Positions 57,640-59,406 of a stretch of 64,000 nucleotides of DNA are shown one piece after another. The position numbers and the translations under genes were made by a program. How positions within the stretch are numbered: the first letter of the stretch is position 1; the number at the start of each line of letters is the position of its first letter. The notes under the pieces were generated by a model. The model was not told the DNA's origin and searched no databases. It saw only the letters and a list, made by a program, of their open reading frames with translations. Origin of the DNA: Arthrobacter endolithicus (lineage in GTDB: Bacteria > Actinomycetota > Actinomycetes > Actinomycetales > Micrococcaceae); the NCBI RefSeq assembly GCF_026627425.1, contig NZ_JAPNLH010000002.1, positions 186,001-250,000 of the forward strand, given 5' to 3'.

Positions 57640-58614
57640 TTAGAAGTCCCAGTCGTCGTCCTCAGTGTTCACGGCCTTGCCAATCACATATGAAGACCCG
57701 GACCCGGAAAAGAAGTCATGGTTCTCATCCGCGTTCGGGGACAGCGCGGAGAGGATCGCCGGGTTCACGTCCGTGACAGCGGCCGGGAACATGGCCTCGT
57801 AGCCCAGGTTCATCAGCGCCTTGTTGGCGTTGTAGTGCAGGAACTTCTTGACATCCTCGGCCAGGCCCACAGCATCGTACAGATCGTGCGTGTAGTGGAC
57901 TTCGTTTTCGTAGAGCTCGTACATCAGCTCGAACGTGTAATCCTTGAGCTCCTGGCGTTTGGCCTCGGAGACCTTCTCCAGCCCGCGCTGGAATTTGTAG
58001 CCGATGTAGTAGCCGTGCACGGCCTCGTCGCGGATGATCAGCCGGATCATGTCGGCGGTGTTGGTCAGCTTGGCCCGGGAGGACCAGTACATCGGCAGGT
58101 AGAAGCCGGAGTAGAAGAGAAAGGATTCCAGCAGGGTGCTGGCCACCTTGCGCTTGAGCGGGTCATCTCCTGCGTAGTAGTCCATCACGATCCTGGCCTT
58201 CTTCTGAAGGTACTCATTTTCAGTGGACCAGCGGAAGGCTTCGTCAATCTCTTTGGTGGAGCAGAGTGTAGAGAAGATGGACGAATAGCTCTTGGCGTGC
58301 ACGGATTCCATGAACGCGATGTTCGTGTAGACGGCTTCCTCGTGCGGGGTGATCGCATCGGGAATCAGGCTGACGGCGCCAACGGTGCCCTGGATGGTGT
58401 CCAGCAGCGTCAGGCCCGTGAAGACGCGCATGGTCAACTGCTGCTCGTCCGGGGTCAGCGTGGCCCAGGACTGGATGTCGTTGGACAGAGGCACCTTCTC
58501 CGGCAGCCAGAAGTTGTTGGTCAGGCGGTTCCAGACTTCAACGTCCTTCTCGTCCTGAATCCGGTTCCAGTTGATGGCCTCAACATGGCTGAGGAGCTTT
58601 ACTTTTTCGGTCAT
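57640..58614 (-). CDS. nrdF: Class Ib ribonucleotide reductase beta subunit
   Basis: A 324-aa ferritin-like radical subunit that forms the tyrosyl radical with a dimanganese or diiron site. The start [20 protein letters not shown] is typical, metal ligands lie in the helices ending [20 protein letters not shown] and [18 protein letters not shown], and the C-terminus EDDWDF is the peptide that binds NrdE. The ATG at 58614 is the natural start, although the frame is open upstream for 264 codons through a homing endonuclease. Separate initiation here would be needed for normal NrdF. Confidence 0.95.
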
Positions 58615-59406
58615 GATTCCGACTCGCTTTCTAAAGAAGGACTTGGCTTGGCTGAGTCCTCGACGCAGTACTTGCAGTCGGCTTTCTCGACGCCTTTGTT
58701 GGTGTGATACCTGGTATGCGCGTTTCTCTGGCTGGAAGGCATCGGACGGCCCTTCCGTACTGCTGACATTTTCGCCCGGGTTTCGGCGCTGGCTGCCTTG
58801 GCCGAAGTTGGGATTTCCTACGCCCCTCCTAGCCTTGGACAGCACTTGACGCGCCTCTATCGACATCGAGTGGCCAAAGCTCGGATGGTCCTCTCCAAAC
58901 TTGCCGAAGTTTGGATTGGCCGGACCAAGGTGGGTTCCTTTGCGTTCCCGAGACCATTTTTCCTTCTGCTCGGAGCTGTGATTCTTGCCGTAAAAGGAGG
59001 CACCCGGACCTGATTCTCTGATTATCTTGCGGCCGGTGGAGCGAATTCGAGCCGCTTCACGCATCGCTTCCGTCCACACAACGCCAGTGGGCCCCAGGCC
59101 TCCCTCGGACAGGTTCAACAGGCGATCCCCTTCTCGACGCAGATAACTGATCCAATCAATTTCAGCCTGACCGAGCTCCGGCAACCCTTCGATCCAATCC
59201 AACTCGTCGGCGATCACGTCAGCTGCGTCGTGTCTTCGGAGCCAGTCGCAGAACGGTGTCTTGCGTCCCTCGGCTGCCACGCGTAGGTGCTGGTGGAAAC
59301 GGCGGCTGGCTGTCTTGGTCGTTATACCGACGTAGCGGTACTCGACCTCCCGCCTAAGCCGGATGCCGTAGACCAAGCCGCCCGTCGCCGTCGTCAACTC
59401 ACTCAT
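58611..59406 (-). CDS. GIY-YIG homing endonuclease with NUMOD3 repeats, frameshifted so that it reads into nrdF
   Basis: The gene begins with an ATG 38 bp after the nrdE stop. The GIY-YIG domain shows VYGI (12-15), YVG (25-27), an RRFHQH helix with arginine, Glu82 in [10 protein letters not shown] and LLNLSEGG. Residues 115-225 hold NUMOD3-type repeats ([39 protein letters not shown]). After the last repeat, near 58800, the expected ending ([33 protein letters not shown]) is in the +1 frame and stops at a TGA (58613-58611) overlapping the nrdF ATG. The present frame instead has no stop and joins NrdF. An extra C in GGCC explains it. Confidence 0.85.

Follow-up and report, generated by a model that had tools for sequence, protein, structure and literature searches.

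In the genome of Arthrobacter endolithicus, we analysed a stretch of 64,000 nucleotides (contig NZ_JAPNLH010000002.1, positions 186,001 to 250,000), here called the window, that carries the genes of a class Ib ribonucleotide reductase (RNR) on its minus strand. The gene for the large subunit, nrdE (59445..61643), is complete, ends with EGCVSCAL and scores 531 bits with Ribonuc_red_lgC, and the gene for the small subunit, nrdF (57640..58614), scores 326.7 bits with Ribonuc_red_sm. Upstream of nrdE lie two genes that we take, from their translations, to be nrdH and nrdI. Another gene lies between the complete nrdE and nrdF genes; its frame (58615..59406, minus strand, with an extended start at GTG 59418) was recognized by Pfam matches, by its intact relatives and by a profile match in two pieces. 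In the assembly this frame is open into that of nrdF, giving a fused minus-strand ORF (57640..59418) of 592 codons counted from GTG 59418, or 588 codons from ATG 59406, whose last 324 residues are NrdF. Just 3' of nrdF, broken frames on the same strand (57021-57501) resemble pieces of an IS630-type transposase.

A first-pass annotation, made from the sequence alone, had taken the inserted gene for a free-standing endonuclease of the GIY-YIG/NUMOD3 type at the nrdE-nrdF junction. By its domain content it is such an endonuclease, and it is free-standing, since nrdE ends complete at 59445 and nrdF is complete as well. The search with Pfam models that had been proposed as a check bore out one half of the assignment directly: NUMOD3 (PF07460) is present in the window protein with 27.6 bits, above the gathering cut-off of 20.4, whereas GIY-YIG (PF01541) reaches 16 bits and stays below its cut-off of 22.6, though it matches 22 of 25 intact relatives at E≤0.01 (best 4.7e-5). 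PF07460 matches all 25. Two tyrosines, an arginine and a glutamate (Y11, Y23, R34 and E80), which we take to be the catalytic residues from their roles in I-TevI, are invariant across the 25 relatives and are not among the two changes that the window protein shows at invariant columns. The top PDB match in a fold search was 1mk0, the catalytic domain of I-TevI (probability 0.99, E 0.025; TM-score by target 0.66-0.70 to the I-TevI-like fold, from a weak model with a mean pLDDT of 62.5), and no PDB entry matched this model at E≤0.001. A sequence search for solved relatives gave none that was convincing, the best being I-TevI with an E value of 0.042, and a match to TIGR01453 lay below the cut-off. 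Because NUMOD3 and GIY-YIG were the only Pfam families matched at E≤1, an HNH domain not being found, we regard the protein as an analogue of T4 MobE, not as a member of the mobE family. At nine loci, Rfam gave no match to a group I intron or another known RNA at gathering scores, and thus no intron is seen at the junction.

The position at which the endonuclease changes its reading frame was narrowed down with a profile built from the 25 intact relatives. Profile columns 2-204 match the first frame (E 4.8e-116) and columns 198-263 the second (E 1.3e-29), in two pieces at G000:C22:244792-245400 and 244614-244811 (window coordinates are contig coordinates minus 186000), and because the pieces overlap while lying in two frames, the change is placed within 58792..58811 on the minus strand. 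The endonuclease frame is correct down to about 58800, where the annotation had located the single shift responsible for the fusion, and continues in another frame beyond. The C-terminus that had been spotted in this other frame (58611..58811, minus strand) is confirmed by the second profile piece; it ends with a TGA at 58613-58611 that overlaps the nrdF ATG at 58614. The former coupling postulated from this ATGA gains credit from the intact relatives, 18 of 25 of which have the same stop/start overlap. The displaced C-terminus is nearly undecayed, and in the first part of the endonuclease only 2 of the 61 columns that are invariant in the other 25 have changed, intact copies ranging from 0 to 5, so that the frame change may reflect either a one-base shift of recent date or a slip in sequencing. 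Read-through of the endonuclease into nrdF is confined to the window among 78 distinct loci with adjacent nrdF (identical 400-nt stretches merged), that is, none of the 77 others has it. In 28 other carriers, no stop interrupts the nrdF frame over the 3 to 206 codons preceding it, so that a frame change late in the endonuclease gene would by chance produce a fusion in some lineages. Since no other locus is fused and the displaced C-terminus has barely decayed, the fusion is probably incidental.

The fresh state of both parts of the endonuclease and the absence of fusions elsewhere would equally suit an error of sequencing or assembly, in which case the true genome would hold an intact endonuclease ending in ATGA over nrdF and no fusion. 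We give this explanation appreciable weight, short of an even chance. The assembly (3.96 Mb, 99.97% complete) is a draft in 72 contigs, and 5 kb away a ribonuclease Z-like gene (52913-53604, plus strand; NCBIfam NF000805 over residues 1-71, below cut-off) also changes frame at about 53113-53125 when compared with the same-genus genome G003, which may be a real loss or a sequencing error in its turn. On the other hand, among 85 matched ORFs (29,397 residues) compared with G003, just two were flagged for a frame change, the clear case of the ribonuclease Z-like gene and one patchy match, and because frame changes are so few, a chance error in one particular 0.8-kb gene is unlikely a priori. The comparison has its limits, as seven ORFs had in-frame stops and the endonuclease itself fell below the 75% filter. 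Broken endonuclease copies do, moreover, occur: 5 of the 80 loci kept from named genomes fail an intactness test in which 75 of 81 copies are intact and the window is among the six failing, although the test may over-call breaks, for example with the near-end stop in L111. The copies L021 and L022 were not counted as broken, as their apparent early stops result from matches that begin before the start codon.

In the assembled genome, nrdEF is the only RNR detected, with one PF02867 match (nrdE), one PF00268 match (nrdF) and no match to NRDD. Because the PF00268 match is single, NrdF must come from the fused ORF, as had been concluded from the window, either as a fusion or via a start at 58614. 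It is very doubtful, in our estimation, that the endonuclease-NrdF hybrid is itself used as the RNR small subunit with the endonuclease part as an N-terminal extension. One frame does run through both parts of this sole PF00268 gene, NrdF is highly conserved (dN 0.005 vs. dS 0.184 to G003), and N-terminal fusions of the RNR small subunit work in Facklamia (PMC6187632); yet the frame change looks recent and lacks a second example, nrdF retains its own ATG with a possible Shine-Dalgarno sequence, and an AlphaFold model of the fusion gives no information on residues 1-233 of the extension (pLDDT <50). With a long anti-Shine-Dalgarno sequence, the nrdF site scores -9.0 in the window, compared with a median of -9.1 in carriers and -6.4 in empty junctions of genus g10, one of two genera surveyed in depth (see below); with a shorter one, the values are -3.7 for the window, -6.1 for one carrier and -6.9 and -5.0 for two empties. 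Another genome, G004 (L045), has a second nrdF at 88% identity in addition to its copy at 98%.

The annotation had also held a free-standing endonuclease in a bacterial nrd operon to be unusual in itself. This did not survive comparison with related genomes; what is unusual is the in-frame fusion only. In the same genus, 2 of 5 genomes carry the endonuclease, and in the family 27 of 395 genomes match, 26 of them at the nrdE-nrdF junction and one elsewhere; L029 (G105), which is not at nrdE/nrdF, was dropped. Across the order, 12 of 396 sampled genomes match the profile at E≤1e-20. For genus g10, 121 genomes were searched, two of them without a match and three left out for a fragmentary nrdF, and the 116 classified junctions comprise 17 carriers, 91 empties and 8 with another insert. 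In genus g52 (60 genomes searched, 58 matched), 59 loci divide into 10 carriers, 46 empties and 3 others. Named genomes yielded 83 relatives, 80 of which were kept, in hosts such as Arthrobacter, Pseudarthrobacter, Sinomonas, Gordonia, Mycolicibacterium, Nocardia, Rhodococcus, Cellulomonas, Agromyces and Microbacterium. Directly upstream of the endonuclease is nrdE in all 80 cases, while nrdF comes next in 55 and is absent from this place in 25 (e.g., Nocardia and Mycolicibacterium), and for this reason we consider the endonuclease to be anchored on nrdE.

Two further observations concern junctions without the endonuclease. The other insert in g10 (L035, L049, L066, L213, L231, L237, L257 and L259) is a different element of 575-663 nt without an endonuclease gene; several of these loci encode short proteins of the type SYRSAKTGRYVTPKYGKSHPSTTVKES, two of which had no match in NCBIfam, and the ends of nrdE and nrdF show the same kind of alteration as in carriers. 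One analysis of these loci took in seven of the eight. Among the empty nrdE-nrdF spacers that were folded (L033, L034, L048, L050, L056 and others), many form a strong, GC-rich hairpin upstream of nrdF that may serve in regulation or processing.

The distribution could also be read as that of an ancient component of the nrd operon, passed on vertically and often lost, with the differences at the gene ends reflecting lineage drift. Identities of endonuclease and NrdE do correlate (Spearman 0.60, 3,081 pairs), and a single pair combines NrdE ≤86% with endonuclease ≥73%; because of this correlation, most of the endonuclease's spread appears to take place among near relatives, distant transfer being uncommon. 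We nevertheless find purely vertical descent quite improbable. Between the window and G003, dS amounts to 1.41 for the endonuclease, far above the values for the flanking nrdE (0.26) and nrdF (0.18), and the window endonuclease is nearer to copies from other genera (82% to L005, 81% to L006) than to that of G003 (75%). As judged from these distances, the two copies in the genus were acquired separately. The intact relatives are, by their substitution pattern, under purifying selection (median dN/dS 0.117 among 25 intact copies, 124 pairs with dS 0.05-1.5).

Also at odds with vertical descent are the gene ends themselves. Compared with matched empty relatives, carriers have a distinct sequence over roughly 22 nt at the end of nrdE and 39 nt at the start of nrdF, and on both sides the differences stop abruptly. 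In the window, the left footprint comprises the 22 nt that precede the nrdE stop codon (59448..59469, minus strand). It is defined by a peak of net divergence between carriers and empties in g10, which reaches 0.095 in the 30 nt at the 3' end of nrdE and does not exceed 0.012 in any of the 19 further intervals that make up the final 600 nt (a peak equalled in 0 of 1000 permutations of the labels), by a nearest-relative test and by a weak repeat in g52, where the peak falls in the same last 30 nt (0.034, 8 of 500 permutations). When each locus is compared with its nearest empty relative, the upstream distance is equal (medians of 3.3% for carriers and 3.5% for empties), whereas in the last 30 nt of nrdE carriers reach 23% and empties 10% (p 2.8e-8, shared ancestry ignored). 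Carrier alleles share ancestry, and all footprint p-values ignore the tree. The right footprint in the window covers the first 36 nt of nrdF (58579..58614, minus strand) with the donor-like head MTEKVKL, which is shared by the two carriers of the genus, while the three empties have MTQRV. Distances in nrdF are 18% and 21% for carriers vs. 3% for empties at nt 1-13 and 14-26, and 14% vs. 5% at nt 27-39, after which the effect ends; a small rise in carriers recurs at nt 66-78 (p 0.016). Both gene ends are thus donor-like, as would be expected from break repair with short co-conversion tracts, and the new ends may also protect from cutting. The Ser codon of the NrdE CVSC motif was considered as a marker of the target; it sets 12 of 17 carriers apart from 5 of 91 empties in g10 and does not repeat in g52, and for this reason we name no cutting site.

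Intronless homing is described best in phages. For the actinobacterial family, we consider it likely that a free-standing GIY-YIG/NUMOD3 homing endonuclease spreads by this route into the 3' end of nrdE and has been freshly broken in A. endolithicus. DNA of a carrier would enter the cell by phage, plasmid or uptake, the endonuclease would cut the empty nrdE-nrdF junction, and repair of the break would copy the endonuclease gene together with short flanks, so that some 22 nt at the end of nrdE and 39 nt at the head of nrdF would be replaced. The replaced ends would keep both RNR enzymes working and may abolish the cutting site, and the endonuclease gene would take the place of the usual spacer. 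In Arthrobacter-type copies the endonuclease stop overlaps the nrdF start, and nrdF is therefore probably translated by coupling. In A. endolithicus, the reading frame would then have changed recently, by a single base close to the 3' end of the endonuclease gene, and the endonuclease would thereby have lost its proper C-terminus. As the nrdF frame was by chance free of stops at this place, an in-frame fusion would have arisen, and NrdF would be produced as part of the fusion, from its own start at 58614, or in both ways.

The closest parallel is the mobE gene of T4, which lies free-standing between nrdA and nrdB, encodes an HNH endonuclease with nrdB as its target, and moves by intronless homing (PMC2988022). 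Both are free-standing at the junction of the genes for the large and small RNR subunits and have codons overlapping the neighbouring gene, and they would share intronless homing as the mechanism. MobE is, however, an HNH enzyme from a phage with a class Ia RNR, whereas the window family is of the GIY-YIG type, chromosomal, associated with class Ib and anchored on nrdE, and, unlike mobE at nrdA/nrdB, also occurs without adjacent nrdF. The Seg endonucleases of T4 resemble it as free-standing GIY-YIG enzymes with intronless homing (again presumed here), but they are phage genes whose products, at the known sites, cut hundreds of bases or more away (PMC2988022). The footprint of the window family touches the insertion, a difference that counts against the homing reading. 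I-TevI and other GIY-YIG/NUMOD3 intron endonucleases share NUMOD3 and, with the weak model, gave the best match in the fold search for the catalytic domain; they belong to introns, whereas the window gene has a complete gene on either side. In phages and Bacillus, nrdE and nrdF are known to harbour introns, inteins and endonucleases; such elements are likewise mobile and favour nrd genes but interrupt them (PMC3653736, PMC3984707), while the window endonuclease sits between them. A chromosomal family of nrdE-anchored endonucleases was not recognized in open-access papers among the matches listed.

Phages and plasmids were considered as close sources of the endonuclease and set aside. The best phage record for an intact relative, a GIY-YIG endonuclease of Arthrobacter phage Talia1610, has 34% identity over 91%, far below the chromosomal copies, and plasmids gave seven Bacillus records only (29%). 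In a contig from a viral collection (L156), nrdE, a relative of the endonuclease (4989-5750, 253 amino acids, 50% identity) and nrdF lie in a row, and viral DNA of this type is a possible vehicle. A more far-reaching scenario, in which a homing cassette brings along new ends for two RNR genes, passes between species by means of short conserved anchors within nrdE and nrdF, travels on phage-like DNA such as L156 as well and mobilizes in trans a second, nuclease-free cassette (the 575-663-nt insert of 8 of the 116 g10 loci, with a footprint of the same type), the broken copy in the window being translated as part of the only RNR small subunit, appears unlikely to us as a whole.

With its many natural pairs of carriers and empties at a vital bacterial locus, and with a footprint on both sides, the family would make target site, self-protection and conversion across species accessible to experiment. 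If the fused ORF is real, A. endolithicus would in addition pose the question of how a cell produces the one RNR small subunit detected in it once a selfish gene has been broken in frame with that subunit's gene.
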